A stretch of DNA of 40,634 nt from Paenirhodobacter populi (GTDB lineage: Bacteria; Pseudomonadota; Alphaproteobacteria; Rhodobacterales; Rhodobacteraceae): NCBI RefSeq assembly GCF_004022215.1, contig NZ_SAUZ01000033.1, positions 1-40,634 on the forward strand, read 5' to 3'. The notes below the pieces were generated by a model. That model saw nothing but the letters and a program-made list of their open reading frames with translations. It was not told the origin of the DNA and ran no database searches. The position numbers and the translations under genes were made by a program. Positions 4,914-30,052 of this stretch are shown here, piece by piece (within the stretch, counting starts at the first letter, position 1; every line of letters begins with the position of its first letter).

Positions 4914-4943
4914 ACGATATTCCGGCCTCAACAGCGCACCGCT

Positions 4944-7258: not shown

Positions 7259-7295
7259 GCCACCTTGACACTCCGCACGGTTTCAAACAAGCATG

Positions 7296-7333
7296 CACCA
7301 TCGGTTGTGCAATGCGGCACGAACGATGGTGCA
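7296..7333. promoter_or_regulatory. Inverted repeat in the lacI-type/transporter divergent region (candidate operator)
   Basis: Perfect 9-bp arms GCACCATCG (7296-7304) and CGATGGTGC (7325-7333) are separated by 20 bp. The spacer contains a second, weaker dyad (TTGTGC...GCACGA). A TTGACA sequence at 7266-7271 could be a -35 element, although no good -10 follows at 17 bp. The position between a LacI-type gene and its probable target operon fits an operator. Assignment is by position and symmetry only. Confidence 0.45.
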
Positions 7334-7453
7334 GAACAGGACGCGCAATTCGCCGGAGGAAGCCGTCCACCCCTTTCCACTGCCGGAAGGCGATGGACAA
7401 GGATCGGACGACACCTGACCGCACCCGACAGAAACGTGGAGGAGATGACAGAG

Positions 7454-8506: not shown

Positions 8507-8556
8507 TCTGCAATCCGGCGCCCGGCACACCCGGGCGCCCCATCGGACATGGCGCC

Positions 8557-10616: not shown

Positions 10617-10630
10617 GAATGGAGTGAAAA

Positions 10631-11359: not shown

Positions 11360-11362
11360 GCC

Positions 11363-12958
11363 ATGAGCACCAGCGAATTCCTGATCGGTGTCGATGTCGG
11401 CACGGGCAGCGCCCGCGCCGGGGTCTTCGACACCAACGGCCGGATGCACGGCACCGCGCGGCGCGAGATCACCATCTGGCGCGCGCCGGGCGGCATCGTC
11501 GAACAATCCGGCGCGCAGATATGGGAGGCGGTCTGCGCCTCGGTGCGCGAGGCCGTCGCAGAGGCAGGCATCGACCCCGGGGCGGTGAAGGGCATCGGCT
11601 TCGACGCCACCTGCTCGCTCGTCGTGCTGGGGGCGGAGGGGCAGCCGCTGCGCGTCGGCCCCTCCGAAGACCCCGAGCGCAACATCATCGTCTGGATGGA
11701 TCACCGCGCGGTTGGTCAGGCGGAACGGATCAATGCCACCGGCGAAATGGTGCTGAAATATGTCGGCGGCCGGATCTCGCCCGAGATGGAAACGCCGAAG
11801 CTCCTCTGGCTCGCCGAAAACCGCCCCGAGGTCTTCGCGCAGGCCCGGGATTTCTTTGACCTTGCGGATTTCCTGACCTGGAAGGCCACGGGAAGCCGCG
11901 CGCGCTCGACCTGCACGGTGACCTGCAAATGGACCTATCTCGCGCATGAAAACCGCTGGGATCCGGGCTATTTCCATCGCATCGGGCTGGGCGTTCTGGC
12001 AGACGAGGGCTTCGCGCGCATCGGCACCGAGGTCGTCGCCCCGGGGACCCCGCTGGCCGGCGGGCTGACGGCCGGGGCGGCGAAGGCGCTTGGCCTGCGG
12101 CCGGGCACCGCGGTGGGTGCGGGGATGATCGACGCCCATGCGGGCGGCATCGGCACCGTGGGCATCGACGATCCGACCCGGGTGATGGCCTATGTCTTCG
12201 GCACCTCCTCCTGCACGATGACGAGCACCCGTGCTCCGGTCTTCGTGCCGGGTGTCTGGGGGCCCTACTATTCGGCGATGGTGCCTGGCCTGTGGCTGAA
12301 CGAGGGCGGCCAGTCCGCCGCCGGGGCCGCGATCGACCGGCTTCTGTCGATGCACCCCGCCGCGACCGAGGCCAGCACCCTTGCCGCCGGAGCGGGGCAG
12401 TCCCTGCCGGTCTGGCTCGCCGCGAAGGCCTGTGCCGGCATCGCCCCCTCCGAGGCGATCCGCCTCGCCGGTCGGCTCCATGTCGTGCCCGAATTCCTCG
12501 GCAACCGCGCCCCGCATGCCGATCCGCACGCCCGCGCGCTGATCGCCGGGCTGGGGATGGAGACCGATATCGACAGTCTGGTTTCCCTCTACATCGCCGG
12601 TCTCGCCGGGGTGGCCTATGGCCTGCGCCAGATCATCGAGGCCCAGACCGCGGCGGGCGCCCCGATCGACGCCATCGCGATCAGCGGCGGCGCCGGGCAG
12701 CTCGACCTCGTGCGGCAGATCCTCGCGGATGCGACGGGCAAACCCGTCGTGGTGACCGCGGCCGATGAGCCGGTGTTGCTTGGGGCATCGATCCTCGGCG
12801 GCGTGGCCTCGGGCCTGTTCGCCGGCATGGAGGAGGCGATGGCCGCGATGACCCGTGCCGTCCGGCGCCATGAACCGCAGGAGGGCGCGATCGCGGCACT
12901 GCACGAGGGGCGCTACGAAGCGTTCCTGAAACTGCAACGCATCGGAACCGAACTCTGA
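11363..12958 (+). CDS. FGGY-family pentulose kinase, probable D-ribulokinase
   Basis: 531 residues. The N-terminal DVGTGSARAGVFD is the phosphate-1 motif of the actin-like FGGY fold, and WMDHRA (~residues 112-117) lies in the sugar-binding region. GAGMIDAHAGGIGTVG corresponds to the catalytic-Asp/phosphate segment, and SGGAGQLDLVRQILAD is the adenosine motif. The pattern fits the 5-carbon (YpCarbK-like, TIGR01315) branch rather than xylulose or glycerol kinase. It starts three bases after the ribitol dehydrogenase stop, so the likely reaction is D-ribulose + ATP to D-ribulose 5-phosphate, which enters the pentose phosphate pathway. Exact substrate specificity is inferred from context. Confidence 0.85.
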   Translation: MSTSEFLIGVDVGTGSARAGVFDTNGRMHGTARREITIWRAPGGIVEQSGAQIWEAVCASVREAVAEAGIDPGAVKGIGFDATCSLVVLGAEGQPLRVGPSEDPERNIIVWMDHRAVGQAERINATGEMVLKYVGGRISPEMETPKLLWLAENRPEVFAQARDFFDLADFLTWKATGSRARSTCTVTCKWTYLAHENRWDPGYFHRIGLGVLADEGFARIGTEVVAPGTPLAGGLTAGAAKALGLRPGTAVGAGMIDAHAGGIGTVGIDDPTRVMAYVFGTSSCTMTSTRAPVFVPGVWGPYYSAMVPGLWLNEGGQSAAGAAIDRLLSMHPAATEASTLAAGAGQSLPVWLAAKACAGIAPSEAIRLAGRLHVVPEFLGNRAPHADPHARALIAGLGMETDIDSLVSLYIAGLAGVAYGLRQIIEAQTAAGAPIDAIAISGGAGQLDLVRQILADATGKPVVVTAADEPVLLGASILGGVASGLFAGMEEAMAAMTRAVRRHEPQEGAIAALHEGRYEAFLKLQRIGTEL

Positions 12959-13048
12959 CCCATCCCCGGTCCGGGGAGGATATCCGCTGGTTGTGAAAAC
13001 CCGGATGCTCTACACCGGCGCAAGGATCAACCCGCCCCGGACCCTGCG

Positions 13049-13525
13049 ATGCCCCATGACGCGGAAGCGTTTCTCGACCGCCTCGACCGGCATGCGACGG
13101 CAAGCGCCGCGCTGGCCGAGTGGTGCGCCACGCGGTTCCCGGGTTGCGCGGGGCCGCTTGCGGCCGCGGTGATCGAGGACCGGGAGCTGTCCCCCGCCGA
13201 GCCCGCCCCCCTGCCCCGCGATCCGAGCGCGCCGATGCGCTACCGGCGGGTGCGGCTCGACTGGGGCGGCACGATGGTCTCGCAGGCGGAAAACTGGTAT
13301 CTGCCGCGGCGCCTGCCCGCGGGCATCGCGGCGCGCCTGCTGGACAGCACCATCCCCTTCGGCGTGCTGCTCGCCCCGTTCGCGCCGCTGCGCCGGGCTA
13401 TCCGCACCGAAATCCTCGACCGGTCCGATGTCGCGCTGGAGGTTCAGGCCGTCATGGCGCTGCCCGGACGCGGCGATGTGGCGCTGGTGCGCGAGCTGTA
13501 TTCCCGCGCCCTGCTGCCGGAATGA
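13049..13525 (+). CDS. UbiC (chorismate lyase)-like fold protein, function unknown
   Basis: 158 residues from the ATG at 13049, 90 bp after the kinase gene. The second half follows the chorismate-lyase pattern: a strand with YRRVRLDWGG, then SQAENWYLPRRL, a short helix, STIPFGVLLAPF (compare TPLG in UbiC), a charged turn, and a final strand VALVRELYSRALLP, which aligns with the catalytic-Glu strand of UbiC. Residues that retain product in UbiC are not obvious, and no ubiquinone genes are adjacent. I therefore call the fold and not the reaction. It may be an accessory member of the ribitol operon or an independent gene. Confidence 0.6.
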   Translation: MPHDAEAFLDRLDRHATASAALAEWCATRFPGCAGPLAAAVIEDRELSPAEPAPLPRDPSAPMRYRRVRLDWGGTMVSQAENWYLPRRLPAGIAARLLDSTIPFGVLLAPFAPLRRAIRTEILDRSDVALEVQAVMALPGRGDVALVRELYSRALLPE

Positions 13526-13528
13526 CAA

Positions 13529-13550
13529 GGGCCGCCCCGAAGGGCGGCCC
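13529..13550. terminator. Bidirectional hairpin terminator between convergent genes
   Basis: Perfect 9-bp stem GGGCCGCCC / GGGCGGCCC with a CGAA loop lies between the UbiC-like gene (ending 13525) and the leftward RND pump gene (ending 13561). No long T-run follows on the rightward strand. The placement between convergent genes supports a shared terminator. Confidence 0.75.
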
Positions 13551-13560
13551 GATATCAGGC

Positions 13561-16500
13561 TCAGTGCTGCACCGCCGGCTCGGCGTCCTTCGGCTTGCTC
13601 CAGCGGCCAAAGACCCAGTTCACCAGCACGAAGGACAGGGGCACGAACAGGAACACCAGAATCGTCCCCGACAGCGTCCCGAACAGCACCGAATAGCCGA
13701 TCGCCTGCCGCGCCCCGGCGCCCGCGCCCGACGACAGCACCAGCGGCACCACCCCCAGACAGAAGGCCATCGAGGTCATCAGGATCGGCCGGAACCGCAG
13801 CTTGGCCGCGATCACCACCGCCTCGACCGCCGATTTGCCGAAATGCAGCATCTGGTCGCGGGCGAATTCGACGATCAGGATGGCGTTCTTCCCCGTCAGC
13901 CCGACGACGGTCAGCATGCCGACCTGAAAATACACCCCGTTCGACTGCCCGCCGATCCAGGCGCCAAGCAGCGTGCCGATGATCCCCACCGGCATCGCCA
14001 GCATCACCGCGATCGGGATCGACCAGCTTTCATACAACGCCGCAAGACACAGGAACACCACCGCCAGCGACAGGCCGTAAAGCGCCAGCTCCCCGTTGCC
14101 CGCCTCCTGTTCCTCAAGCGACAGCCCCGTCCATTGCAGCGAAAAGCCCGGCGGAAGCTGCGCGGCCAGCCGCTCCATCTCCGCCATCGCCGCGCCCGAG
14201 GATACGCCCGGCGCCGCCGAACCCTGAATCTCCATCGCCGGGATCGCGTCGTAGCGCGTCACCTGCTGCGGACCATAGACCCATTGCTGCGTCGCGAAGG
14301 TCGAGAGCGAAACGAAATCGCCATTCTCGTTCGGCACCCGCCAGAGCGCGAAATCCTCGGGGTTCGAGCGCGCCCAGGGTTCGCCCTGCACATAGACGCG
14401 CTTCACCCGGCCTTCATAAAGGAAGTCGTTCACATAGGACGAGGACCAGACCGTGTTGAGGAAACTGCCCACCTGCGCCGCGGTCAGCCCGACGGCCCCC
14501 GCCTTCGCCCAGTCGATGTCCAGCCGAAACTGCGCCGCATCCTCGACCCCGTTCGGCCGTACGCCGGTCAGCAGATCGCTTTGCGACGCCATGCCCAGCA
14601 ACTGGTTGCGCGCCGCCAGAAGCTGTTCGTGCGACTGGCCGCTGTGCGCCTGCAGGAACGCCTGGAAACCGTTGGAATTGCCCAGTTCGATCACCGCGGG
14701 CGGCACGATCGGCACAACGATCGCTTCCTTGATCCCGCCATAGAGCGGCCCAAAGGCGCGCTGCGCGATCGCGCCGGCCGTGTCCTCCGCGCCCGTGCGT
14801 TCATCCCAGGGCTTCAGCTTGACGAACATCATCGCCATGTTCTGCCCCTGCCCCGCGAAGGAGAACCCGACGACCGAGAAGACCGAGGCGACATTCGCCT
14901 CTTCCTTCTGCCGGTAATACTGCTCGACCTGCTGGACGACCTTCCGGGTCTGTTCGCTCGTCGTGCCCGAGGGCGTCTGGATCACGGTCATCAGGATGCC
15001 CTGATCCTCGTCCGGCAGGAACGAGGTCGGCGTGCGGGTATACATCACCCCCATCGCTGCGACGATCAGCAGATAGACGATGATCCCCTTGATCGGATTC
15101 GCCACCATCCATTTGACGATCCCGCCATAGCCGTTCGTCACCCGGCCGAGCCGCTTGTCGAACCCGTCCGAGAACCGCGCCTGCAAACCGCTGCGGTCAT
15201 GCGAATGCGGTTTCAGGATCGTCGCGCAAAGCGCCGGGGTGAAGATCAGCGCCACGATCACCGACAGCGTCATCGCGGACACGATGGTGATCGAGAACTG
15301 TTTGTACACCTGTCCTGTCGAACCGCCGAAGAACGCCATCGGCACGAACACCGCCGACAGCACCATGGCGATGCCGACCAGCGCGCCCGAGATCTCGCCC
15401 ATCGACTTCTTTGTGGCTTCCTTCGGCGAAAGATGTTCCTCCGCCATGATCCGCTCGACGTTCTCGACCACGACGATGGCGTCGTCGACCAGAAGCCCGA
15501 TGGCCAGAACCATCGCCAGCATGGTCAGCGTGTTGATGGTGAAGCCAAGCGCCGCCATCACCCCGAACGTGCCCAGAAGCACCACCGGCACCGCCAGCGT
15601 CGGGATCAGCGTCGCCCGCAGCTTGTGCAGGAACAGCAGCATCACCAGAACCACCAGCACGATCGCCTCGATCAGCGTATGCACCACCGCGTCGATCGAG
15701 ATCGTCACGAAGGGCGTGGTGTCGTAGGGGATCACATATTCCATCCCCGAGGGGAAATAGGGCTTCAGTTCCTCAAGCCGTGCCTTCACCAGCTCCGCCG
15801 TATCCAGCGCATTGGCGCCCGAAGCCAGCTGGATCGCCATCCCCGCCGAGGGCACGCCATCGTAATAGGCCTGAATCTCATAGGTCTCGGCGCCCAGTTC
15901 GACCCGCGCCACGTCGCGCAGCAGCACAAGGCCGCCATCGGTATCCGCGCGCAGCACGATCCGCTCGAAATCCTCGGGCGTCTGCAACAGCGACTGCGCC
16001 GTGATCGTGGCGTTCAGCAACTGCCCCTCGGGCGCCGGCTGCGCGCCGAAGGCACCGGCCGAGATCTGCGCATTCTGCCCCTGCACGGCCGCGATCACCG
16101 TCGCCGGGCTCATGTCATAGGCGTTCAGCTTGTGGGGATCGAGCCAGATCCGCATCGCATATTCCGACCCGAACACCTGCACCGTGCCGACCCCCGCAAG
16201 GCGCGAGAAGCTCTCGACCATCGAGGAGTTCATGTAGTCGGCCAGCTCGACGTTGGAGCGCGACCTGTCGGGCGAGATCAGCGAGACCACCATCAGGAAG
16301 CCCGATGTGGATTTCCGCACCGTCACGCCCTGCCGCGTCACCGATTCCGGCAACGAGGCCTCGGCCTGACTCAGCTTGTTCTGCACCTGCACCTGCGCGA
16401 TGTCGGCATTGGTGCCCAGCTCGAAGGTCAGGGTGATCTGCGCCGTGCCGTTCGAGGTGGTCGAGGAATTGATGTAGCGCAGCCCGTCAAGGCCGGTCAT

Positions 16501-16704
16501 CTGCTTCTCGATCACCTGCACGACCGTATCGGCGACGGTCTCCGCCGAGGCGCCCGGATAGGTCGCGCTGATCACCACCGAAGGCGAGGCGATCGAGGGA
16601 TATTGCGAAATCGGCAGCCGCAGGACCGACAGGATGCCGATCCCCATGATGACGATGGCGATGACCCATGCAAAGATGGGCCGGTCAATGAAAAAGCGTG
16701 CCAT
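13561..16704 (-). CDS. RND multidrug efflux pump, AcrB/HAE1 type
   Basis: 1047 residues, the normal AcrB length. It opens with MARFFIDRPIFAWVIAIVIM, and the first porter domain has PTxYPGASAETVADTV-type sequence. Helix 4 has GLLVDDAIVVVENVER with the two proton-relay Asp residues, and GLTGKNAILIVEFA carries the matching helix-10 Lys. All key residues are present, so it should be an active inner-membrane proton antiporter. It starts one base after the fusion-protein stop. In this operon the outer-membrane gene comes first and the pump last, unlike the common fusion-pump-channel order. Likely substrates are hydrophobic drugs, but these are not readable from sequence. Confidence 0.95.
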   Translation of the reverse strand: MARFFIDRPIFAWVIAIVIMGIGILSVLRLPISQYPSIASPSVVISATYPGASAETVADTVVQVIEKQMTGLDGLRYINSSTTSNGTAQITLTFELGTNADIAQVQVQNKLSQAEASLPESVTRQGVTVRKSTSGFLMVVSLISPDRSRSNVELADYMNSSMVESFSRLAGVGTVQVFGSEYAMRIWLDPHKLNAYDMSPATVIAAVQGQNAQISAGAFGAQPAPEGQLLNATITAQSLLQTPEDFERIVLRADTDGGLVLLRDVARVELGAETYEIQAYYDGVPSAGMAIQLASGANALDTAELVKARLEELKPYFPSGMEYVIPYDTTPFVTISIDAVVHTLIEAIVLVVLVMLLFLHKLRATLIPTLAVPVVLLGTFGVMAALGFTINTLTMLAMVLAIGLLVDDAIVVVENVERIMAEEHLSPKEATKKSMGEISGALVGIAMVLSAVFVPMAFFGGSTGQVYKQFSITIVSAMTLSVIVALIFTPALCATILKPHSHDRSGLQARFSDGFDKRLGRVTNGYGGIVKWMVANPIKGIIVYLLIVAAMGVMYTRTPTSFLPDEDQGILMTVIQTPSGTTSEQTRKVVQQVEQYYRQKEEANVASVFSVVGFSFAGQGQNMAMMFVKLKPWDERTGAEDTAGAIAQRAFGPLYGGIKEAIVVPIVPPAVIELGNSNGFQAFLQAHSGQSHEQLLAARNQLLGMASQSDLLTGVRPNGVEDAAQFRLDIDWAKAGAVGLTAAQVGSFLNTVWSSSYVNDFLYEGRVKRVYVQGEPWARSNPEDFALWRVPNENGDFVSLSTFATQQWVYGPQQVTRYDAIPAMEIQGSAAPGVSSGAAMAEMERLAAQLPPGFSLQWTGLSLEEQEAGNGELALYGLSLAVVFLCLAALYESWSIPIAVMLAMPVGIIGTLLGAWIGGQSNGVYFQVGMLTVVGLTGKNAILIVEFARDQMLHFGKSAVEAVVIAAKLRFRPILMTSMAFCLGVVPLVLSSGAGAGARQAIGYSVLFGTLSGTILVFLFVPLSFVLVNWVFGRWSKPKDAEPAVQH

Positions 16705-16705
16705 G

Positions 16706-17848
16706 TCAGTTCGATCCAGCCTGTGCCGTCGGGGCGGGCGTATCCGGAACGATCTGCACCGGCGCGCCCACGGCGGTCTTCTGGAAGCCCGAGGTGATGA
16801 CCTGATCGCCCGGCTGCACGCCGTCCGTCAGCACCCAGTCGTTGCCCGAGGCTTTCGCGATATGCACCGGCCGCTGCGCGACCTTGCCATCCGCCACCAC
16901 CCAGACAAAGGCGGCGCCGGAACGGTCCCGCATCACCGTGTTCTGCGGCAGGGTGATCGCGTCATGCGCCACCGATTGCGGCAGGTCCACCTCGACATAC
17001 ATGCCCGGTAACAGGATGTGGTCGGGGTTCGGATAGCTCATCCGCAGCGTCACCATGCCCGTGGTCGGCTCGACCTGCGGTTCCGCGGCCTCCAGCCGGC
17101 CCTTGGCGCCATAGGTGCTGTTGTCGGGCAGGATCAGCGCCGCCTCGCCCAGCTCGCGCATCTGCCGCCCCTCGGGGGTCGAGGTCAGCCGCAGGATGTC
17201 CGTCGCAGATTGCGTGACGTCCACATTCACCGGATCGAGCGTGCGGATCGTCGCCAGAGGCGTCGCCTGCTGCGCCGCGACCAGCGCGCCGGTCGTGGTC
17301 TGCGACAGGCCGATCGCGCCCGAGATCGGCGCCCGGACCGTGGTGCGGTCAAGGTCGATCTCGGCGCTCATCAGTTGCGCCTGCGCCGCCTGAAGCGCCG
17401 CATCCGCCGCCTCGCGCGAGGAAACGGCCGTGTCACGGGCCTGCGCCGAACTGGCGTTTTGCCGGAACAGCTCCACCGCGCGCTTTTCCTGCGTCACCGC
17501 CAGATCGTAATTCGCCTGCGCCTGCGCCACGGCGGCTTTCGCCGCCGCGACGGCAGCGCGGTAGCTGTCATCCTCGATCTTGTAGAGCGGAGCCCCCGCC
17601 TCGACCATCGAGCCTTCCTCGAACAGCCGTTCCCGCAAGATGCCCGACACCTGCGGACGCACCTCGGCCACGGTAGAGGCCTTGATGCGCCCCGGCAGGC
17701 GCGCCGTCATCACCACGTCCGAGGCCTTCGCCTCGATCACCGTCACGGGGGCCGGTTGCCCTGCCCCCTGTGCCCAGACCGGCGCGCCGATCACAAAAAC
17801 TGCGGAAACGGTGCCGAGGCATCGGAAAGTGGCATTCAGAAAAGACAT
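16706..17848 (-). CDS. RND periplasmic membrane-fusion protein (AcrA type)
   Basis: 380 residues from the ATG at 17848, which immediately precedes a signal peptide (MSFLNATFRCLGTVSAVFVIGAPVWAQG). The open frame extends upstream but with low-complexity, non-secretory sequence. The lipoyl half-motifs are LPGRIKASTVAEVRPQVSGILRERLFEEGSMVEAGAPLYKIE and VRAPISGAIGLSQTTTGALV. They flank a coiled-coil hairpin rich in Ala, Gln and Arg (~residues 85-165). A beta-barrel and membrane-proximal domain follow (LLPGMYVEVDLP). No lipobox Cys is evident after the signal. It bridges the pump to the outer-membrane channel. Confidence 0.92.
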   Translation of the reverse strand: MSFLNATFRCLGTVSAVFVIGAPVWAQGAGQPAPVTVIEAKASDVVMTARLPGRIKASTVAEVRPQVSGILRERLFEEGSMVEAGAPLYKIEDDSYRAAVAAAKAAVAQAQANYDLAVTQEKRAVELFRQNASSAQARDTAVSSREAADAALQAAQAQLMSAEIDLDRTTVRAPISGAIGLSQTTTGALVAAQQATPLATIRTLDPVNVDVTQSATDILRLTSTPEGRQMRELGEAALILPDNSTYGAKGRLEAAEPQVEPTTGMVTLRMSYPNPDHILLPGMYVEVDLPQSVAHDAITLPQNTVMRDRSGAAFVWVVADGKVAQRPVHIAKASGNDWVLTDGVQPGDQVITSGFQKTAVGAPVQIVPDTPAPTAQAGSN

Positions 17849-17894
17849 CGGTAACCTGCGTATGCGTGAGGAGGGGGAGGACTCCTTCATCGCC

Positions 17895-19259
17895 TCATCG
17901 CGTTGACCTGCCTGCGGCAGCGACGCTGAGAGCGATGAAATCCGCCGCCCGCTGCCGTTCGGCGGCGGACAACGACTGTTGTGCGGAAAGATAGCTGCGT
18001 TCGGCATCCAGCACGTTCATGAACGTGCCTTCGCCCAGACTGAAATTGGTGCGCGACAGCTCGACCGCCTCGGACGAGGTGGACACGAGCCGCTGCTGCG
18101 CCGCGATGTTGCGGGCGTCGCGGTTGTAGGCCGCAAGACCCGATTCGACTTCCTCGATCGCGTTCAGCACCGATTGTTCCCAGGCGAGCTTCGCCTGCAC
18201 CGCGCGCGATTCGGCGCCCTTGAGATTGGCGATGTTCCCCGCCTGAAAGATCGGCAGGTTGATCGTCGGCCCGATCGCCCAGTAGGTGATGCTGTTGCCG
18301 CCCCGCACCTGCGTCGGCGAGATCGACCCCGACAGGCTGACCGAGGGCCAGAACGCCGCCTGCGCCACGCCGACCTCGAAGGCCGCCGCCGCATACTGGC
18401 GTTCGGCCAGATTCACATCGGGACGTTCGCGCACGACCTCGGCGGGAACACCGACACTGGCGCTGAAACGCGGCCGCGGCTGCGGGCTGCCGCGCCGCAG
18501 CGTCGGGCGCAGATCGGCGATCCGCTGCCCGGTCAGCGTCGCCAGACGCGCCAGCGCCTGATCGAACCCCACCTCATAGGCCGGCAACTGCGCCTCGCCC
18601 TCGGCCACAAGCTGTTCGGCCTGCAACACGTCGAGCCGCGCCGCGCCGCCCAGATCGAACTGCGTCCGCGTCAGATCGAGGCTCCGCCGCCGGCTTTCCA
18701 GCGACCTCTGCGTCAGCGCGATATTCGCCTGATAGTAACGCATGTCGACATAGGCATTGGCGATCCCGCTTTCCATCACCAGCCGCGCGACATCCGCCGA
18801 CAGATAGGCGGCATCGAGCTGCGCCGCCGCCGCCCGCCGGGCGTTGCGGTTCGCGCCGAAGATATCAAGCACCCAGCTCGCGCTCGCGCCGACCGAGCTG
18901 GAGGTCGCCGTCCCGGTCCCGTTGGGGTTGCCGCGCTGCGCACCCGCCGTCGCGTCCACCCCGGGCAGGTCATTCGCGCCGATCGCCTCGGCCGCGGCCC
19001 GCGCCTCGTTCACCGCCTCGACCGCCTGCCGCACGTCGAGGTTGCGGGCATTGCCCGCCGTGATGAGCTGGTCAAGCTGGCTGTCACGGAACGAGGTCCA
19101 CCACATCCGGTTTCCGGTCCGCGCCGGTGCCGTGCCGTCGAACCGCGCGGCAACCGCCGCCGCGGGAGGATCGTAATTCACATCCGCGCATCCGGCCAGC
19201 GCCAGAGTGGCGGCGGACCATTTCAACAAGGAACGCCTGCCGATTGTCATTTGCGTCAT
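17895..19259 (-). CDS. Outer-membrane efflux lipoprotein, NodT/OprM family
   Basis: 454 residues from the ATG at 19259, preceded by a GGGAAG-type site. The N-terminus is GRRSLLKWSAATLALAGC: a lipobox (ALAGC, Cys 24) preceded by a twin-arginine-like RRSLLK. The mature protein shows two TolC-type repeats: DVRQAVEAVNEARAAAE...LPGVDATA, and later RPDVNLAERQYAAAAFEVGVAQAAFWPSVSLSGSI, the classic NodT motif. Coiled-coil stretches with ...RSLDLTRTQFDLGGA and ...VELSRTNFSLGEG follow. It forms the outer-membrane exit duct for the adjacent RND pump. The fusion-protein gene begins 46 bp downstream, and the TetR repressor is divergent. Confidence 0.92.
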   Translation of the reverse strand: MTQMTIGRRSLLKWSAATLALAGCADVNYDPPAAAVAARFDGTAPARTGNRMWWTSFRDSQLDQLITAGNARNLDVRQAVEAVNEARAAAEAIGANDLPGVDATAGAQRGNPNGTGTATSSSVGASASWVLDIFGANRNARRAAAAQLDAAYLSADVARLVMESGIANAYVDMRYYQANIALTQRSLESRRRSLDLTRTQFDLGGAARLDVLQAEQLVAEGEAQLPAYEVGFDQALARLATLTGQRIADLRPTLRRGSPQPRPRFSASVGVPAEVVRERPDVNLAERQYAAAAFEVGVAQAAFWPSVSLSGSISPTQVRGGNSITYWAIGPTINLPIFQAGNIANLKGAESRAVQAKLAWEQSVLNAIEEVESGLAAYNRDARNIAAQQRLVSTSSEAVELSRTNFSLGEGTFMNVLDAERSYLSAQQSLSAAERQRAADFIALSVAAAGRSTR

Positions 19260-19483
19260 TGGACTTCCCTTTCCCATTCGCTTCGCGTTCGGGACTCATA
19301 TGGTCCCTGTTTCTCCGTCCGACCCGGCAGTCGTGTTCCCGTCATTTCCCGCTTAACATGCGGACCATTCACACACCTTTCCGGAACTCGTGCCGGAAAG
19401 ACTAGCATCAAGTCGTCGGATACGCTTGTCCGAATTTTCTCAATCGGTTGGAAAGATTAGACCAGCCTTCTGCGTTATTCTTA

Positions 19484-21490: not shown

Positions 21491-22153
21491 CTAGAGGATC
21501 CGCAGCGGCATCTCGGGCGCGACGACCGCCAGCGCCGCCGCGATCCGCCCGATCAGATGCGTCTGCACATAGGCCGCGTGAAAGCCCGAGGGCGCGCGCA
21601 GCACCAGCTCGCCCGCCTCGTCGACGGGTTCCAGCGCCGCGAACCAAACGCGATGGATGCTCGCATCCTCGGCGAGCAACCGGCGGGACACCTGCCCCCA
21701 GAGGCTTTCCCCCGACGGCAGCGCGGCGCCTGGAAACGGGATGACGGTCGAGGCGGCGGGTTCCGGCGCTTCCTCGGTGCGCAGCCGCACGTCCAGATCC
21801 GGTCCGACCCGGATCCAGTCGGCGCGGGTATCCTCGAGGATCTTGGCGATCGCCAGCCCGTATTGCGCCACCCTGCCCCGCGCCGCCGGACGCTTTTCCA
21901 CCAGCCAGCCGCGTTCTCTGAAAGCCGCCATCTCGCGCTTGACGGTGCGCACATCGACCGACCACAGCCGCGCGATCTCTTCTTGTCCGATGGAAAGCAG
22001 ATCGTTCTGCCAGTTGTAGCGCGCCGTCACCAGCGAGATCAGCCGCAAGGCCTGCCGCTGGAAGCCCTTGTCGCGTGCAAGCGCATGCACCGCCAGCACC
22101 GTCAGCAGATCATATTTGCGCGTGCCGCCGCCTCGCCCGACGGCTTTCTTCAT
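21491..22153 (-). CDS. Plasmid replication initiator, Rhodobacterales 'DnaA-like' type
   Basis: 220 residues from the ATG at 22153; a GTG two codons upstream is also possible. Residues ~14-90 form a helical, winged-helix-like DNA-binding region (LLSIGQEEIARLWSVDVRTVKREMAAFRERGWLVEKR). A linker rich in Pro and Glu follows. Residues ~150-215 (LWGQVSRRLLAEDASIHRVWFAALEPVDEAGELVLRAPSGFHAAYVQTHL) match the DnaA domain-I pattern. No AAA+ ATPase or DnaA box-binding domain is present. In DnaA, domain I contacts the replicative helicase, so this protein may bind the origin by its N-terminus and recruit helicase by its C-terminus. It is divergent from parAB across the presumed origin. Confidence 0.8.
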   Translation of the reverse strand: MKKAVGRGGGTRKYDLLTVLAVHALARDKGFQRQALRLISLVTARYNWQNDLLSIGQEEIARLWSVDVRTVKREMAAFRERGWLVEKRPAARGRVAQYGLAIAKILEDTRADWIRVGPDLDVRLRTEEAPEPAASTVIPFPGAALPSGESLWGQVSRRLLAEDASIHRVWFAALEPVDEAGELVLRAPSGFHAAYVQTHLIGRIAAALAVVAPEMPLRIL

Positions 22154-22173
22154 CAACACCGGACTGCCCTTTC

Positions 22174-22190: not shown

Positions 22191-22600
22191 CCGCCTGCTC
22201 ACGCGTTTGCCGCGTCTGTATCATGAGAACGCCGTTCGCGGGATCCCGGCCAAGAACGTTGCCTTCGTTCCCTGCCGCGCCAATCCAACGCTATTCGCCA
22301 TTCTGTGGTTATTAGCGTTGGCATTTACGATTCTGTCAAGTGCCGGGCTGAAACGGCTTTGCCGGATCACGCCAATGGAAAAGAAAAAACGGTTCCATTG
22401 GTATTGGGGGACATCCTGTCTGTCACCCCAAATGCCGGAAATGTCCCCCCAATCCCTCCGAGACCCCCGGGTTTTGTCCCGTCAACCGGACCCTGGCCTG
22501 CGGGTCCGCCACCCGGTCGGGGCGAATCGGGGAAAGCCTTTCCGTGCAGGCATTTGGCCGCTTATCGGCGCTTTCCGGCATTCTGCGCCCCGATCATAAC
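22191..22600. other. Probable replication origin region (oriV)
   Basis: This gene-free stretch between the divergent initiator and parA genes carries several nested inverted repeats. Arms CCAACGCTA (22285-22293) and TAGCGTTGG (22313-22321) are perfect, 19 bp apart, and enclose TGTGGTTAT, which is a 7/9 match to a DnaA box. Arms CCAATGGAA (22372-22380) and TTCCATTGG (22393-22401) are perfect around an A-rich spacer. ATTGGGGGACAT (22403-22414) and ATGTCCCCCCAAT (22441-22453) differ by one extra C, with a related TGTCACCCCAAAT between them (22421-22433), giving iteron-like copies. Position and repeats support an origin; function is inferred. Confidence 0.65.
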
Positions 22601-22677: not shown

Positions 22678-23985
22678 ATGTTCACCCATGAGGATCTTGC
22701 AGCCCTGCAGGCGCAGTCGCTGAAGATGCAGAGCCATATCCGCCGCCAGACCTTCTCCCCCGAGCATGAAAAGACGCTGCGGCGCTTTTCCTCGTGGGAG
22801 GTGTCCGAGCTGATCTTTCGCATCAACCAGTCGACCTTCCGCGGCCGGCTGGTGTCCGAGCCCGACCTTCCCGGCGGGGAAGTCGAGGAGGACGGCCGCC
22901 AGCGCTGGTTCTCGCTCTCCGAGATCAACGAGCTGCGCCGCAAGATGAAGATCAACCGCCATTCGCTGATGCCGGTGCGCCCGGCGGGCAAGCGCGCGAT
23001 CCGGGTGGCGATCTCGAACTTCAAGGGCGGCGCGGGGAAATCGACCGTCGCGCTGCACATGGCGCATGCGGCGGCGCTGGACGGATATCGGGTGCTGCTG
23101 ATCGATTTCGACCCGCAGGCGACGCTGACCCATTCGATGGGCCTGCATGATGTCAGCGAGGAACTGACCGTCTGGGGCATCATCGCGCGCGACCTCGTGC
23201 ATGAAACCGACCGGATGAACGCCGCGCCGCGCGCCGCCGAAACCGGCACTGCCCTGCCCCAACGCCGCCTGCCTGCCTCGGTCCGCGATCTGGGGCTTGG
23301 GGATCTGCGCGTGGGCGACTTCATCCGTCCGACCGCCTGGCCCACGATCGACATCGTGCCGTCCTGCGCCAATGCCGCCTTCGTCGAATTCGCCTCGGCG
23401 CAGTATCGGCACCTGAACCCGGACTGGTCCTTCTTCGCCGCGGTGTCGCGCTATCTGGACGCCCTGCCCCATGATTCCTACGACCTGATCCTGTTCGATT
23501 GCCCGCCGGCCATCGGCTATCAGTCGATGAACGCCGTCTTTGCGGCAGATGTGCTCTATATCCCCTCGGGCCCCGGCTATTGGGAATACGACTCGACCAC
23601 CTCTTTCATCGGTCAGCTGGCCGAGGCGCTGTCCGACCTTGCCACCGGCTTCGACGGCACCTTCCCCGCGGGGAAGATGACGCTGCCGAAAGCCTTCCTT
23701 GATGTGCGCTTCCTGATGACGCGCTATGAACCGGGGAATGAATTGCATCGCGCGATGTTCGAGGCATTCCGCAAGGTCTTTGGCGATACCGTCGCCAAGG
23801 AACCGATCGAGATGACCCGCGCCGTCGAACAATCCGGGCGCTTCCTCTCTTCGGTCTATGAAATCGACTACCGCACCATGACGCGGGAAACCTGGCGCCG
23901 CGCCCGTGCCTCGTTCGACCGCGCCTATATGGAATTCAAGGACTGCTTCCTGCAAGCATGGGAAAAGGTGGAGGCTGAGGAATGA
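22678..23985 (+). CDS. parA: ParA/RepA-type partition ATPase
   Basis: 435 residues from the ATG at 22678; an upstream TTG in frame would overlap the promoter. Residues ~38-92 look like a MerR-type helix-turn-helix (SSWEVSELIFRINQSTFRGRL ... RWFSLSEINELRRKM), as in type Ia ParA. The deviant Walker A is KGGAGKST (116-123), preceded by VAISNFKGG, then VLLIDFDPQATLT (A' motif) and DLILFDCPPAIG (Walker B region). It should move plasmid-bound ParB over the nucleoid and may repress its own operon. Two copies of the 16-bp palindrome lie within the gene. It overlaps parB as ATGA (23982-23985). Confidence 0.93.
   Translation: MFTHEDLAALQAQSLKMQSHIRRQTFSPEHEKTLRRFSSWEVSELIFRINQSTFRGRLVSEPDLPGGEVEEDGRQRWFSLSEINELRRKMKINRHSLMPVRPAGKRAIRVAISNFKGGAGKSTVALHMAHAAALDGYRVLLIDFDPQATLTHSMGLHDVSEELTVWGIIARDLVHETDRMNAAPRAAETGTALPQRRLPASVRDLGLGDLRVGDFIRPTAWPTIDIVPSCANAAFVEFASAQYRHLNPDWSFFAAVSRYLDALPHDSYDLILFDCPPAIGYQSMNAVFAADVLYIPSGPGYWEYDSTTSFIGQLAEALSDLATGFDGTFPAGKMTLPKAFLDVRFLMTRYEPGNELHRAMFEAFRKVFGDTVAKEPIEMTRAVEQSGRFLSSVYEIDYRTMTRETWRRARASFDRAYMEFKDCFLQAWEKVEAEE
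22867..22882. repeat. parS-like 16-bp palindrome, copy 1 (one mismatch), inside parA
   Basis: CTTCCCGGCGGGGAAG differs from the consensus CTTCCCCGCGGGGAAG at one base. It falls on codons 64-68 of parA, read as Leu-Pro-Gly-Gly-Glu. It is probably a weaker centromere site. Confidence 0.65.
23661..23676. repeat. parS-like 16-bp palindrome, copy 2, inside parA
   Basis: Perfect CTTCCCCGCGGGGAAG at about codons 328-333 of parA, read as Thr-Phe-Pro-Ala-Gly-Lys. Confidence 0.8.
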
Positions 23986-25064
23986 AAAAGCGCCGCATCT
24001 TCGACATCGACCTGCCCGAGGAGGAAGAGACCTTCCCCGCGGGGAAGCCCGAGGAACCCCCCGCGCGCCGGTCGCCGATGGCCGCCGCGATCACCGAAAA
24101 CGCCGAATCCCTGCGCGAACGCCGCGCGGTCGAGGATCAGATCCGCGCCGAGAATGACGCCCTTGCCGCCGAACATGTGCGGATGAAGCGGCTTGGCCTG
24201 ATCGTCGACATGGTGCCGCTCGACGCGGTGGAATGCTGGAAGCTGGTCCGCGACCGGGTGAAGGGCGACGATTACGAATTGACGGAACTTGTCGCCTCGA
24301 TCCGCGATCTGGGCCTGTCGAACCCGATCCGGGTCGAGGCGCGCGAGGATGGCAAATACGAGCTGATCCAAGGCTACCGGCGCCTGTCGGCCTATCGGCA
24401 ATTGCTGGAAGAAACCGGCGATGCCGAGAAATGGGGCCGCATCCCGGCGGGCATTCTTCCCCGCGGGGAAGATCTTGACGGGCTCTATCGCCGCATGGTC
24501 GATGAAAACCTTGTGCGCAAGGACATCTCATTCGCCGAAATGGCGATGCTCGCGCTGAATTACGTCCGCGATCCGCAGACGGCCGAGAACGATCCCGACA
24601 AGGCCGTGGCGTTGCTGTTCCAGTCGGCCGGCTATCAGAAGCGCAGCTACATCCGGCAATTCGTCCGGCTGATGGACCGCATTGGCGAGGATCTGCGCTT
24701 TGCCCAGCATATCCCACGCGCGCTTGGGCTGAAGCTGGTGACGGTGCTGGAAGAACGGCCCGAGCGCGCCGCGCAGATCCGCGCCGTGCTGAAGGACTGG
24801 GACAACCGATCCGTGTCCGATGAAATCGCGGTGCTGCAAAAGGCGGTGGGGGAGGGGGATCCCGAACGTCCCATCCCCGTGGCGACGGTGGCGCCCCGAC
24901 CGGGCAAGGCCAAGACGACGTTTCAGGTCACCTCGCGCGTCGGCACCGCCAAATGCACCGCCGCGAATGGGCGGCTGGAAATCCGGCTGGACCGGGATTT
25001 CTCGGCGCTCGACCGGCACAAGCTGGAGGCGGCGCTGGCGCGGCTTCTGGACGATATCGGCTGA
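23982..25064 (+). CDS. parB: ParB/RepB-type centromere-binding protein
   Basis: 360 residues, start overlapping the parA stop. After an acidic N-terminus, the ParB CTPase-fold boxes appear in order: ELVASIRDLGLSNPIRVE (~103-118), YELIQGYRRLSAYRQL (~125-140, with GYRR in place of the usual GERR), and ENLVRKDIS (~172-180). A helix-turn-helix region follows (FAEMAMLALNYV...GYQKRSYIRQFVRLMDRIG), and a C-terminal dimerisation segment ends in ALARLLDDIG. It presumably binds the repeated 16-bp palindrome, of which two copies lie inside its own gene and one directly after its stop codon. Confidence 0.92.
   Translation: MKKRRIFDIDLPEEEETFPAGKPEEPPARRSPMAAAITENAESLRERRAVEDQIRAENDALAAEHVRMKRLGLIVDMVPLDAVECWKLVRDRVKGDDYELTELVASIRDLGLSNPIRVEAREDGKYELIQGYRRLSAYRQLLEETGDAEKWGRIPAGILPRGEDLDGLYRRMVDENLVRKDISFAEMAMLALNYVRDPQTAENDPDKAVALLFQSAGYQKRSYIRQFVRLMDRIGEDLRFAQHIPRALGLKLVTVLEERPERAAQIRAVLKDWDNRSVSDEIAVLQKAVGEGDPERPIPVATVAPRPGKAKTTFQVTSRVGTAKCTAANGRLEIRLDRDFSALDRHKLEAALARLLDDIG
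24032..24047. repeat. parS-like 16-bp palindrome, copy 3, inside parB
   Basis: Perfect copy at codons 17-22 of parB, read in the same phase as copy 2 (Thr-Phe-Pro-Ala-Gly-Lys). It lies within the poorly conserved acidic N-terminus. Confidence 0.8.
24456..24471. repeat. parS-like 16-bp palindrome, copy 4, inside parB
   Basis: Perfect copy at codons 159-164 of parB, but in a different phase from copies 2 and 3 (Leu-Pro-Arg-Gly-Glu-Asp). The DNA sequence, not the peptide, is therefore what is conserved. Confidence 0.8.
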
Positions 25065-25065
25065 T

Positions 25066-25081
25066 CTTCCCCGCGGGGAAG
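25066..25081. repeat. parS-like 16-bp palindrome, copy 5, after parB
   Basis: Perfect copy starting two bases after the parB stop codon and ending 12 bp before the operon terminator. It is the only noncoding copy. Confidence 0.82.
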
Positions 25082-25093
25082 GGGAGGGGAGGG

Positions 25094-25119
25094 CGCCCGG
25101 GGATTTCCCCGGGCGTTTT
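25094..25119 (+). terminator. Rho-independent terminator of parAB
   Basis: Perfect 9-bp stem CGCCCGGGG / CCCCGGGCG around an ATTT loop, followed by TTTT. The tail touches the last codon of the convergent recombinase gene. Confidence 0.92.
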
Positions 25120-26162
25120 CAGTCCAGCAGGTCCGTTGCGGGGTTCTGCTCGATTTCCACATCGGCATAGTAGCGCCCGGCCTGCTGGACGGAGCGATGC
25201 AGCGACAGCTTCATCGCCGCCTGCAGCGGCGCACCGTCCAGCGCCGCTTGGGTCAGGAAGCCCGATCGCAGCCCGTGCGGCGTGGCGTAATCCTCGGGCA
25301 GGCCCGCGGCCTTCAGCCGGGCGCGCAGGATGATGCGGATCGCGTCCGGGGCAAGCGGGCGGGGCAGGGGGCGCCCGGCCCGGCTGACGGGGCGGAAGAG
25401 GGGGCCAGAGTCGATCCGCGCGGCCTCGATCCAATGCACCAGGGCGCGGGCGGCGCGCCCCTTGACCGGCAGGCGCGGCGCAGCCCCCCGTGCCGTGGTC
25501 TTGGTTTCCAGAAGCCGCAGCCAGATCAACCCGCGCTCGGCAAAGTCGCTCAGGTCGATGTCGTCGCGCTTCAGCCCGGTGATCTCCGAGCGTCGCCGGC
25601 CGCCCGAGGCGAAGCCCAGCATCAGCACTGCCCGGTCGCGGATCCCGCGCAGGCTGTCGTCGCAGGTGGCCAGCAGGGTTTCCAGCACGTCGCGGGTGAC
25701 GGGGCGGGGGGATTTCGGTTTCTCGGGCCGGGCCGCGGCCTTGCGCGCCTTGGCCCGCGCCTGACGCAAAAGCGGCGCCTCGAACGGCGAGGGCAGGTTG
25801 CGGATCCGGTGAAACGCCCGCCACGAGGCGATCCGCCGGTCCAGCGTCGACGGGGCAGGGCAGTCGAGCGACCGCCGCAGCCCCGCCGCGATCAGCTCCA
25901 TCGCCGCCTCATGCGCATTGGTCCCGGGCCGGTCGTTCAGGTCGATGGAATGGTCGAGCACAAAGCGCAACGCAACGCGCTCGTCCTCCGGCCAGACGAG
26001 AGGCTGCCCGAATACCTCCGCCTTCCACGCGGCGATATAGGCCAGGTCCCGTTCCCAGGCCCGAAGCGTATTCGCCGGCGTGCCGCGCCGGTAAAGATCC
26101 GTGAGGGTCTGTTCCTCATCCTTCGACAGGCTGGAAAAGCTGATCGGAACCGGCGCGGTCAT
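25119..26162 (-). CDS. Tyrosine recombinase/integrase (XerC/D-like)
   Basis: 347 residues from the ATG at 26162, with a GGGAG site eight bases upstream. Residues ~12-130 form a core-binding SAM-like domain. The catalytic domain shows Arg in FASGGRRRSEITGL, the beta-hairpin Lys region (LLETKTTARGAAPRLPVKG), HGLRSG (His-x-x-Arg), a second His in LSLHRSVQQAGRYY, and the nucleophilic Tyr in GRYYAD, all in the expected order. It therefore looks active. It is convergent with parAB, and a dif-like inverted repeat lies 56-86 bp upstream of its start. I infer a plasmid multimer-resolution enzyme. A phage or island integrase is the alternative, but no phage genes are present. Confidence 0.88.
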   Translation of the reverse strand: MTAPVPISFSSLSKDEEQTLTDLYRRGTPANTLRAWERDLAYIAAWKAEVFGQPLVWPEDERVALRFVLDHSIDLNDRPGTNAHEAAMELIAAGLRRSLDCPAPSTLDRRIASWRAFHRIRNLPSPFEAPLLRQARAKARKAAARPEKPKSPRPVTRDVLETLLATCDDSLRGIRDRAVLMLGFASGGRRRSEITGLKRDDIDLSDFAERGLIWLRLLETKTTARGAAPRLPVKGRAARALVHWIEAARIDSGPLFRPVSRAGRPLPRPLAPDAIRIILRARLKAAGLPEDYATPHGLRSGFLTQAALDGAPLQAAMKLSLHRSVQQAGRYYADVEIEQNPATDLLD

Positions 26163-27853: not shown

Positions 27854-30052
27854 ATGTCGCATCACGCGCTAGCGCGTTTTCATACCCTTGGGTTTCTGCT
27901 GGGCAGCAGCATTCTGGCCGGCTTGCCCGGCAGCCTTGCGGCGCAGGAGGCCGCATCCCCGCAAGACGGGCAGACCGCGGCCAGCGGTGCCGTCGTGCTC
28001 GACCCGCTGCTGATCACCGCGCGTGACGGTTCCGGCGGCGGGCAGGGCGACAGCATCTATCGGACGCCCGATGCCGTCAGTTCCACGGATGCGGCTGAGA
28101 TCCAGACCCGCAGCGGCGGTAACCCGCAGGGCGCCCTGCGGATGATGCCCGGGGTCTTTACCCGGCAGCAATCGAGCCAGCCCGGCATCGAGGTCAATAT
28201 CCGCGGCCTCAGCGGTTATGGCCGGGTCAATGCGATGATCGACGGCGTGCCGCAGACCTTCAGGAACATCGCCGGGCACGAGGCTTCGGGTGGGTCCATG
28301 CTGTATGTGCAACCCGAACTGCTTGCCGGGGTCGATGTGGCGCGCGGCGCCGTTGCGGGCGCGGCAGGTTCCGGCACGCTGGCAGGCGCCGCGAATTTCC
28401 GCACTCTCGACATCGATGATGTCGTGTCCGAGGGGCAGAAACAGGGCGTGCTGACCCGGTTGAAGTTCGGCGGCAATGGCTATCACCGCTCCGGCATGGT
28501 CGCGATGGGCCAGCGCTTCGACGGCCTCTGGGGCGGCATGGGCGAGGCCAACTATATCGTCGGCACCGCCTACACGGTGCAGGGCGATTACAAGGGCGGC
28601 CATGATTATGAGATCCCGGGCGGGCAGACGGGCCGCGCATCGGGGAATTCGCCGAAAGGTTCGCTTGCGAAGGTCGAGATCAGTCCGAATGCGGCGCACA
28701 GGTTCTCGATCGGCTGGCGGGACTATGACAACACCTTCCGGAACTCGTCCTATACGTGGAACGTGCGCAACAACACCTGGACGGCGGGCTATGCCTATGA
28801 CCCCGGCAGCCGGTGGATCAACCTCGACATCGAGGCCTATTACAACGACAGCAAGCTCGATTACCTCAACACCACGGGCAGCTATGCGGGGCGCAGGACC
28901 GAGGACAGGACGACCGGCCTCAATGTGACGAACCGTGCCTCGGTGGACTGGATGGGCCATCCGCTCGACCTGCAATATGGCGTGAGCTGGAGCCGGAACG
29001 ACTTCCAGACCCATTATGCGCGCGGCGGCAACTCTCCGGGCAAGCTCGACAAGGCGAGCCTGTTCGGCGAGGCGGCGCTTGACCTTGGACGGTTCGGCCT
29101 GAACGGCGGGCTGCGCTACGATCACTGGAAGATCGACGGGTATCGCGCGCCCTATGCCGCCGGCGTGGGGGATTGTCCGGCCGGTGGTGCGGCTTGCGGC
29201 GACGACTGGGTGACCCGCGATGGCGGCAAGCTGTTGCCGAAAATCGGCCTGACCTTCAAGGCGCGTGAGGATCTGGAGCTTTATGCGAGCTATGCCCATA
29301 CCTTCCGCCCGCCGACGACGCATGAGGCATTCTTCTCGCTTGTGCCCTTTGGCAATGGCACGGGCAGCGGTGTGGCGAACAACCTCGACCTGAGCCCCGA
29401 GACCAGCAAGACTGTGGAAATCGGGGCGAATTTCGTGCGTGACGGGCTGTTCCTGCCGGGCGACAAGGCGCGGCTGAAAGTGGGCGCGTTCCACAGCGAT
29501 ATCAGGAACTACATCGTCAATGACTTCGTCTATGTGCCGGGGCGGGGCACGACGGCGATGTGGGTGAACAGGTCCGGCACCACCGGCATGGACGGGATCG
29601 AGATCGAGGGCGGCTATGATCTGGGCTTCGCCTATCTGAACCTTGCCTTCACGGCCAGCAACACCGACGACCAGCCGCATGGCGACGGGGCCGGATCCGG
29701 CAATGGCGAAGGCTCGGTTCTGCCCGATACGGTCGCCACGCTCGACATCGGCACGCGGCTGATGGACCGGCGGCTGAGCCTTGGCGCGCAGGTCCGCTAT
29801 GTCGGCGAGGGAAAGGAAGCCATCGGTGACTACAGCGGCTCGGGCATCACGAGCCAGTGGACCACGACCGATGCCTATACGCTGGTGGACCTTTACGGCA
29901 GCTACGCGGTCACCGACCGGGTCGAGGCGTTCCTCTCGGTCGAGAACGTGGAGGACAAGAAATACGGTTACGCGGGTTCGGGCTATGGCGGCTACGCGGC
30001 CCAGACGGGCCGGGGCCGGACCTTCATCGTCGGCATGACCGCGCGGTTCTGA
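27854..30052 (+). CDS. TonB-dependent heme/hemoprotein receptor
   Basis: 732 residues after a GAGGAG site. The signal peptide spans about residues 1-33, with a predicted cut near LAAQ. A TonB-box-like region (VVLDPLLITAR) and a plug domain (residues ~60-175: GALRMMPGVFTRQQSSQPGIEVNIRGLSGYGRVNAMIDGVPQTFRN) follow. The 22-stranded barrel ends in the terminal Phe of GMTARF. YASYAHTFRPPTTHEAFFSLVPFG...NNLDLSPETSKTVEIG corresponds to the FRAP...NPNL heme-receptor motif, with the His expected between. Its HugZ neighbours on both sides support heme as substrate. No TonB, ExbBD or HmuTUV genes are in the window, so those must come from elsewhere. Confidence 0.92.
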   Translation: MSHHALARFHTLGFLLGSSILAGLPGSLAAQEAASPQDGQTAASGAVVLDPLLITARDGSGGGQGDSIYRTPDAVSSTDAAEIQTRSGGNPQGALRMMPGVFTRQQSSQPGIEVNIRGLSGYGRVNAMIDGVPQTFRNIAGHEASGGSMLYVQPELLAGVDVARGAVAGAAGSGTLAGAANFRTLDIDDVVSEGQKQGVLTRLKFGGNGYHRSGMVAMGQRFDGLWGGMGEANYIVGTAYTVQGDYKGGHDYEIPGGQTGRASGNSPKGSLAKVEISPNAAHRFSIGWRDYDNTFRNSSYTWNVRNNTWTAGYAYDPGSRWINLDIEAYYNDSKLDYLNTTGSYAGRRTEDRTTGLNVTNRASVDWMGHPLDLQYGVSWSRNDFQTHYARGGNSPGKLDKASLFGEAALDLGRFGLNGGLRYDHWKIDGYRAPYAAGVGDCPAGGAACGDDWVTRDGGKLLPKIGLTFKAREDLELYASYAHTFRPPTTHEAFFSLVPFGNGTGSGVANNLDLSPETSKTVEIGANFVRDGLFLPGDKARLKVGAFHSDIRNYIVNDFVYVPGRGTTAMWVNRSGTTGMDGIEIEGGYDLGFAYLNLAFTASNTDDQPHGDGAGSGNGEGSVLPDTVATLDIGTRLMDRRLSLGAQVRYVGEGKEAIGDYSGSGITSQWTTTDAYTLVDLYGSYAVTDRVEAFLSVENVEDKKYGYAGSGYGGYAAQTGRGRTFIVGMTARF

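Follow-up and report, generated by a model that had tools for sequence, protein, structure and literature searches.

The partition genes parA and parB on a contig of Paenirhodobacter populi (NZ_SAUZ01000033.1, positions 1 to 40,634; this whole stretch of 40,634 nucleotides is called the window) carry, mostly within their own coding sequence, a 16-bp palindrome, CTTCCCCGCGGGGAAG, whose copies very probably serve a DnaA-like-I plasmid as parS sites for partition and together make up its centromere; binding by ParB is suggested by the correlation between its recognition helix and the type of palindrome. We located four exact copies and one with a single mismatch (sites 1 to 5, Table 1), four of the five lying inside the two genes, with sites 1 and 2 in parA and sites 3 and 4 in parB. 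A preliminary description, made from the sequence alone, had given the same five positions, the same two reading phases (LPGGE or LPRGE in phase 0, TFPAGK in phase 2) and a spacing of about 370-790 bp; sequence search confirmed the positions and the phases, and the gaps between successive sites measured 794, 371, 424 and 610 bp.

Palindrome sites in the window and in the host genome

Six matches at up to three mismatches were found in the window, a number that none of 100 dinucleotide shuffles reached (mean 0.65, largest 5). The search was extended to the whole host assembly (91 contigs, 4,777,466 bases), where many copies would have spoken against the preliminary description, and in these 4.78 Mb the five window sites are the only places at zero or one mismatch to CTTCCCCGCGGGGAAG. 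Six further places differ at two mismatches, and a reversed control pattern gave eight at two or fewer. A spaced variant of the palindrome was also searched for and gave one match, which equals the chance expectation.

Occupancy of the sites in related plasmids

We assembled 148 related loci, from which removal of nine without a full parA and three duplicates left 136, and removal of five with an unresolved ParB start (L084, L176-L179) left 131. Free detection of palindromes in these 131 loci revealed six main families, CTTCC (57 loci), TGTCC (31), CTTAC (14), GTTCC (9), TTTCC (9) and CTTAT (4), and the sites of these 124 loci were then counted, any match to the palindrome of the locus itself being accepted that had no more than one mismatch in the twelve arm bases. 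The slot in parA that corresponds to site 2 is occupied in 116 of the 124 loci, the region downstream of parB in 94, the region upstream of parA in 71 and the 5′ part of parB (slot 3) in 64, while parA slot 1 (49), other positions in parB (25), the middle of parB (17) and other positions in parA (4) are rarer. The arms of site 1 are kept around a variable central codon in 44 of the 57 CTTCC loci. Altogether 275 of 470 sites are intragenic, with at least one such site in 123 loci and at least two in 93, and the density is 1.12 sites per kb inside the module vs 0.053 per kb in the remaining DNA examined. Among 394 genomes of the bacterial family, the exact 16-mer occurs in 27 (reversed control, 1), and 25 of these 27 encode a relative of ParB (E ≤ 1e-40), vs 101 of the 394 overall.

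These counts uphold the earlier suggestion of a centromere distributed through the partition genes that it serves, with the correction that it is only mostly intragenic, because site 5 is non-coding and 94 relatives have a site after parB. Several observations weigh against a uniform embedding. The 124 loci are those of the 131 whose best palindrome family is among the six, which leaves out seven; slot 2 is missing in eight of the 124; site 4 is confined to 13 of the 57 CTTCC loci, for the most part the window's closest relatives; in two named Sulfitobacter type-I plasmids sites were found upstream and in parB but none in parA; and the DnaA-like-II relatives have no intragenic sites. A Phaeobacter inhibens plasmid carries imperfect copies only, at one to two mismatches. 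In the type-II relatives the palindromes are GTTACCCATGGGTAAC or of GTAACCC type and stand downstream of parB only, both in the named DnaA-like-II plasmids (L189 with three copies spaced 29 bp apart, L188 with a single copy) and in loci L174-L179, which have two copies or near-copies each. Since these relatives lack intragenic sites, embedding is not needed for partition; it is a feature of the type-I group that varies in degree, and no requirement.

Two loci combine both arrangements. Downstream of parB, L150 has five palindrome copies whose starts span about 240 bp, plus two further on, and L009 has four copies at one to two mismatches whose starts span about 220 bp; both would be mixed intragenic and clustered centromeres.

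The copies upstream of parA raise another explanation, in which the sites are mainly ParB operators that autoregulate parAB and segregation proceeds via the downstream non-coding copy only. It would accommodate the 71 relatives with an upstream copy, and KorB, a member of the ParB family, silences genes at a distance (PMC11790492). We nevertheless consider it unlikely, as neither the window nor its near relatives L005-L014 have a palindrome copy upstream of parA, and slot 2 is commoner than either the upstream or the downstream copy. The operator and centromere roles are moreover compatible and not exclusive. The coupling of segregation to expression that the preliminary description suggested may also exist, though the window is without the upstream copy that 71 relatives have.

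Palindrome copies were also seen on chromosomes of other genomes. The 4.15-Mb chromosome of genome G034 (L180/L197, L201-L215) encodes an orphan plasmid-type ParB with Tyr-Gln at its recognition helix and without a parA match in the 12.9 kb examined. All but one of the 35 palindrome copies in this genome (at most one mismatch; 33 exact) lie on that chromosome, and six of 15 inspected copies sit inside a longer AACC...GGTT palindrome; they could be a domesticated, Noc-like use of the site, or a terminator family. Genome G035 (L199, L200) has seven exact copies, five of them on its largest contig, and the two inspected are flanked by AAAACC...GGTT and look more terminator-like than parS-like.

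Covariation of ParB residues 218 and 219 with the palindrome

The type of palindrome goes with the first two residues of the predicted recognition helix of ParB. At residue 218, the 75 loci whose palindrome starts with CT all have Tyr and the 31 with TG all have Arg, and Pro occurs in eight of nine with TT and Lys in seven of nine with GT. At residue 219, none of the 18 loci with A at base 4 has Gln, which is present in 103 of the 106 with C there. Each of the two residues tracks palindrome bases in 121 of the 124 loci. In the 118 loci with a readable rep, the normalised information with site type was 0.69 for residue 218 and 0.38 for the next ParB column; in ParA the highest-ranking columns, 329 and 333, correspond to codons within the site. 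In a separate ranking, by information over column entropy, residue 219 came third (0.67). Four of the seven loci outside the six families fit as well; L148 (TTTACCC) has Pro and L164 (CGTCCCC) has Arg at residue 218. The distant loci L174 and L175 (GTAACC and GTTACC), also outside the six families, have Lys at 218 and a residue other than Gln at 219. In L188, L190 and L191 the two residues were left unread, as the search pattern did not find the recognition helix.

Based on these correlations, we propose that residue 218 reads bases 1-2 of the palindrome and residue 219 base 4. In the AlphaFold model of ParB (mean predicted local distance difference test score, pLDDT, 82.6), residue 218 is the first of helix 218-237. 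In a chromosomal ParB, one residue alters which base is preferred at position 1 of the palindrome, provided that permissive residues are present (PMC7383237), and the proposed reading is therefore mechanistically plausible.

Some points speak against it. The predicted template modelling score of the model is 0.56; L134, L160 and L172 break the residue-218 rule; L100, L115 and L169 are without a proper palindrome family; and residue 219 falls outside the top eight ParB columns by normalised information in the 118 loci. Site types also cluster on the ParB tree, with 13 changes vs a shuffled mean of 60.3, and the permutation and information tests correct incompletely for relatedness, independent switches being few. 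The independent-pairs test had at most three pairs per trait, too few for significance, and its informative pairs all pointed in the expected direction.

The same data bear on the idea that the sites are iterons bound by the DnaA-like replication initiator instead of ParB. The sites share their module with rep, a divergent relative of which is present in 118 of the 124 loci, but the best Rep column carries a normalised information of 0.32 on site type against 0.69 for ParB residue 218; besides, the sites are located within and close to parA and parB, and in the two named DnaA-like-II plasmids directly downstream of parB. We regard an iteron function as very improbable.

Constraint at the DNA level inside coding sequence

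To have three exact copies, and four at no more than one mismatch, within parA and parB is beyond what the two proteins and their codon usage provide: none of 3000 synonymous-codon shuffles that kept both matched the observed family, and the largest shuffle families comprised two exact copies (four shuffles) or three copies at one mismatch or fewer (two shuffles). Slot 2 is near-palindromic (at most one of its eight pairs broken) in 117 of 130 loci, compared with 47% for the runner-up among the 1287 codon-phase positions tested along parA. That second-best position, TCGGCCAGCTGGCCGA, 22 codons before slot 2, was set aside, as no more than 12 of 131 loci have it in perfect form and its sequence does not resemble the sites; its near-palindrome would be caused by the peptide.

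The codon that precedes slot 2 encodes a varying amino acid, yet in 116 of 130 loci the third base of this codon is complementary to the final base of the site. This holds for C in 73 of 78 cases, T in 33 of 38 and G in 10 of 14, the T cases being the most telling because C often fills the third codon position where DNA is GC-rich. Third-base entropy is low at the fourfold codons of slot 2, which rank 0-7 of 176 in the TGTCC plasmids (GTC CCC GCG GGG ACA), with two such codons ranking 1 and 15 of 169 in the CTTCC plasmids.

Slot 3 illustrates how the site persists where the peptide does not, which was one of the checks proposed in the preliminary description. It is present in 48 of the 57 CTTCC loci, at offsets of 47 to 101 nt and in one common phase, and the ten residues on either side show pairwise identities of 20% and 19%. 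The site DNA itself is 99% identical, a figure that is partly by construction since the rows were chosen for near-matching arms; the result is the 48 of 57. ParB residues 14-23, around site 3, have a pLDDT below 50 and are disordered in the AlphaFold model, and site 4 falls between strand 153-159 and helix 165-178.

A comparison of coding with non-coding copies within the same locus was possible for 66 of 130 loci, which have a perfect palindrome within 300 bp after parB. The first such palindrome agreed with the coding slot 2 at 15 or more of 16 bases in 58 of these 66 loci, against a maximum of 31 in 2000 permutations. The codon shuffles, the synonymous constraint, the agreement of coding with non-coding copies and the correlation with ParB residues 218-219 all bear out the view of the preliminary description that selection is on DNA and not on peptide, and on this comparative evidence we take selection to act on the DNA inside coding sequence.

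Peptide conservation or GC-rich codon bias could in principle give rise to palindromes that have no function at the DNA level: the peptides LPxG and FPAGK and GC-rich codons favour such strings, and parA does contain an unrelated near-palindrome, 22 codons ahead of slot 2. The codon shuffles, the synonymous constraint and the use of two phases contradict this explanation, as do the varying offsets of slot 3 among unconserved peptides and the agreement of the coding copy with the non-coding one, which makes it hardly credible. Equally hard to credit are RNA hairpins that would act as terminators or attenuators inside the operon. Intragenic sites 2, 3 and 4 were folded, and stems of 6-7 bp form at sites 2 and 4, but folding is only modestly above shuffles (z -0.7 to -1.8), the sites are not followed by a T run, a separate strong terminator stands at 25089-25120, and the ParB correlation is left unexplained.

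A model for a probable embedded centromere

The location of the sites, their conservation, the DNA-level constraint, the match of coding with non-coding copies and the correlation with the ParB helix are directly supported. A mechanism may be built on these, in which the helix-turn-helix of ParB would bind each 16-bp palindrome, and ParB, of the CTP-clamp type (CTP, cytidine triphosphate) by its conserved motif, would load from five points over 2.2 kb and cover its own operon, with ParA moving the ParB-DNA complex. The sites would be placed where peptides tolerate them, at LPxGE, FPAGK and disordered or loop regions, and synonymous constraint would keep the palindrome arms. When a lineage changes ParB residues 218-219, the embedded sites would be altered to fit, and a new specificity, probably with a new compatibility group, would result. 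Binding, loading, spreading, segregation, compatibility and the order of the switching events are the steps that we infer.

We offer a broader reading tentatively, as somewhat less probable than its converse: the partition genes would be the centromere, recombination could not easily part the reader from its target, and new compatibility groups would arise via two ParB residues (218 for bases 1-2 and 219 for base 4) together with rewritten sites, mostly coding, whose peptide changes the proteins tolerate. Within the family, a DNA-binding protein varies together with several binding sites in coding sequence, a natural series that makes testable how a partition system could change specificity without plasmid loss, whether two ParB residues suffice to predict the compatibility group, and to what extent DNA-binding sites can shape protein sequence. 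FPAGK-like peptides in the ParA and ParB of these plasmids may reflect the DNA site instead of being functional motifs. If the two-residue reading is true, the substitution Y218R in ParB would shift its preference towards TGTCCCCGCGGGGACA.

The replicon and its other features

Table 1. Sites, genes and further elements of the partition module, with positions in the window
Feature	Position	Strand	Sequence	Description
Site 1	22867..22882		CTTCCCGGCGGGGAAG	parA codons 64-69, LPGGE, phase 0; arms intact, centre off
Site 2	23661..23676		CTTCCCCGCGGGGAAG	parA codons 328-333, TFPAGK, phase 2; most widespread of all slots
Site 3	24032..24047		CTTCCCCGCGGGGAAG	parB codons 17-22, TFPAGK, phase 2; N-terminus predicted disordered
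Site 4	24456..24471		CTTCCCCGCGGGGAAG	parB codons 159-164, LPRGED, phase 0
Site 5	25066..25081		CTTCCCCGCGGGGAAG	non-coding; starts 2 bp past the parB stop
ParB codons 218-219	24633..24638	+		Tyr-Gln; first residues of predicted recognition helix 218-237
rep	21491..22159	-		DnaA-like replication initiator, 222 amino acids, GTG start; divergent from parAB
parA	22678..23985	+		partition ATPase, 435 amino acids; AAA_31 2e-25, ParA/MipZ families
parB	23982..25064	+		centromere-binding protein, 360 amino acids; ParB_N 26.6 bits (cut-off 26.3)
Hairpin	25089..25120	+		14-bp stem, 3′ arm ending in a T run; RNA fold of 25050-25120, -40.5 kcal/mol

Rep is 43.6% identical to the 'plasmid replication protein DnaA-like-I' annotated on Marinovum pMaD5 (CP010860); its Pfam DnaA_N match (24.1 bits, residues 151-211) lies just under the curated cut-off of 24.6, and a Crp-type helix-turn-helix match is below the cut-off of that model. 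ParA shares 73-92% identity with relatives that have a full parA and 59-62% with the distant set L174-L179, whose palindromes resemble those of the named DnaA-like-II plasmids. The corresponding ParB values are 53.3% to the pMaD5 protein and 35-38% to the distant set. Residues G131, R133, R134 and A137 of ParB are invariant in 40 sequences and form a GxRRxxA-type motif, which we take to mark a ParB of the CTP-clamp type. The AlphaFold model matches structures of Noc, ParB and KorB (Foldseek, best E 4.9e-08), and a sequence search of the PDB with ParB gave one weak Noc match. With a ParA-type ATPase gene beside parB, and the N-domain, the motif and the helix-turn-helix in ParB, the pair has the features of a ParABS system. 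Relatives of ParB were found in 603 plasmid records, on 47 named contigs and in the 101 family genomes given above.

The order of divergent rep and parA-parB recurs on closed plasmids (L182, L184, L190, L191), pMaD5 included among the closed plasmids; the window is itself an unclosed contig whose ends have no terminal overlap. From its weakly DnaA-like replicase, its divergent rep-parAB order and a ParB nearer to type I than to type II, the module is assigned by sequence to the DnaA-like-I plasmid type. A repABC replicon was rejected, with TIGR03453 at 201.3 of 348.45 bits and TIGR03454 at 37.9 of 201.5 bits, both far under their cut-offs; the repABC parS consensus GTTNNNNGCNNNNAAC (PMC9040568) is not matched either, as the window palindrome starts with CTT.

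Directly after site 5, the hairpin at 25089-25120 is likely the parAB terminator, where a tyrosine recombinase gene (25119-26162, minus strand), convergent with parB, also ends; it is possibly a plasmid dimer-resolution or integration gene. The rep-parA intergenic region contains an imperfect inverted repeat at 22285-22321 (16-nt arms, 5-nt gap), which may belong to the replication origin or to an operator. Selected open reading frames were scanned at 434-19277 and 27854-30052, and the cargo seen there includes a molybdopterin oxidoreductase, a sugar-type transport permease, an FGGY kinase, a LacI-type regulator, a TonB receptor and an AcrB-type efflux pump together with its outer-membrane channel. 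Elsewhere in the host assembly (contig C14, 13023-13859; L216) another, distant ParB is encoded, with 34% identity and a different helix-turn-helix sequence, and within the 3.8 kb examined around it neither a copy of the window palindrome nor any repeated palindrome was found.

Comparison with known systems

Petersen and colleagues are said to have proposed in 2011 that conserved palindromes within the DnaA-like replication module are centromeric anchors. A parS also lies within spo0J of B. subtilis. The palindrome reads CTTCCCC in the window, CTTATCC in pMaD5 and GTTCCCC in the two Sulfitobacter type-I plasmids, and these DnaA-like-I plasmids (the Sulfitobacter plasmids as named in PMC9025767) have their gene order and homologous rep, parA and parB in common with the window.

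The parS of Rhodobacterales repABC plasmids is likewise a 16-bp palindrome with a central GC, and the window palindrome differs from its consensus GTTNNNNGCNNNNAAC at base 1 (PMC9040568). Those sites tend to sit between repB and repC or downstream of repC, in contrast to the conserved slots in parA and parB described here. Some copies lie inside open reading frames, for example in cas genes, and the authors hypothesise positive selection for them even in coding sequence (PMC9040568).

Centromere sites inside genes are known as single cases. In the ParT-parS system of the Streptomyces plasmid SCP2, the gene for the centromere-binding protein contains a functional parS, an inverted repeat of 18 bp, in its coding sequence (PMC12260392). 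One such site is described for SCP2, whose ParT is without a CTPase domain, whereas the window has four intragenic sites and one outside. The centromere protein ParZ of Borrelia binds within its own gene (PMC9712426), and a putative parS lies inside the mycobacterial partition gene parA (PMC2346475); both are chromosomal, and no concerted series or switching is described in the accessible text of either paper. In a literature search that covered titles, abstract openings and text passages, no conserved series inside both partition genes was found that matches the ParB recognition helix type by type; the conserved embedding, the in-place switching and the ParB correlation look new.

The nearest parallel to the specificity change is the switch between ParB and Noc, in which R173Q in the DNA-binding domain alters the base-1 preference for a 16-bp palindrome (PMC7383237); residue 218 of the window's ParB may be equivalent to R173. 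That switch concerns chromosomal ParB vs Noc, whereas here several natural types, with Y, R, P or K at residue 218 and Q, T or S at residue 219, occur in one plasmid family.

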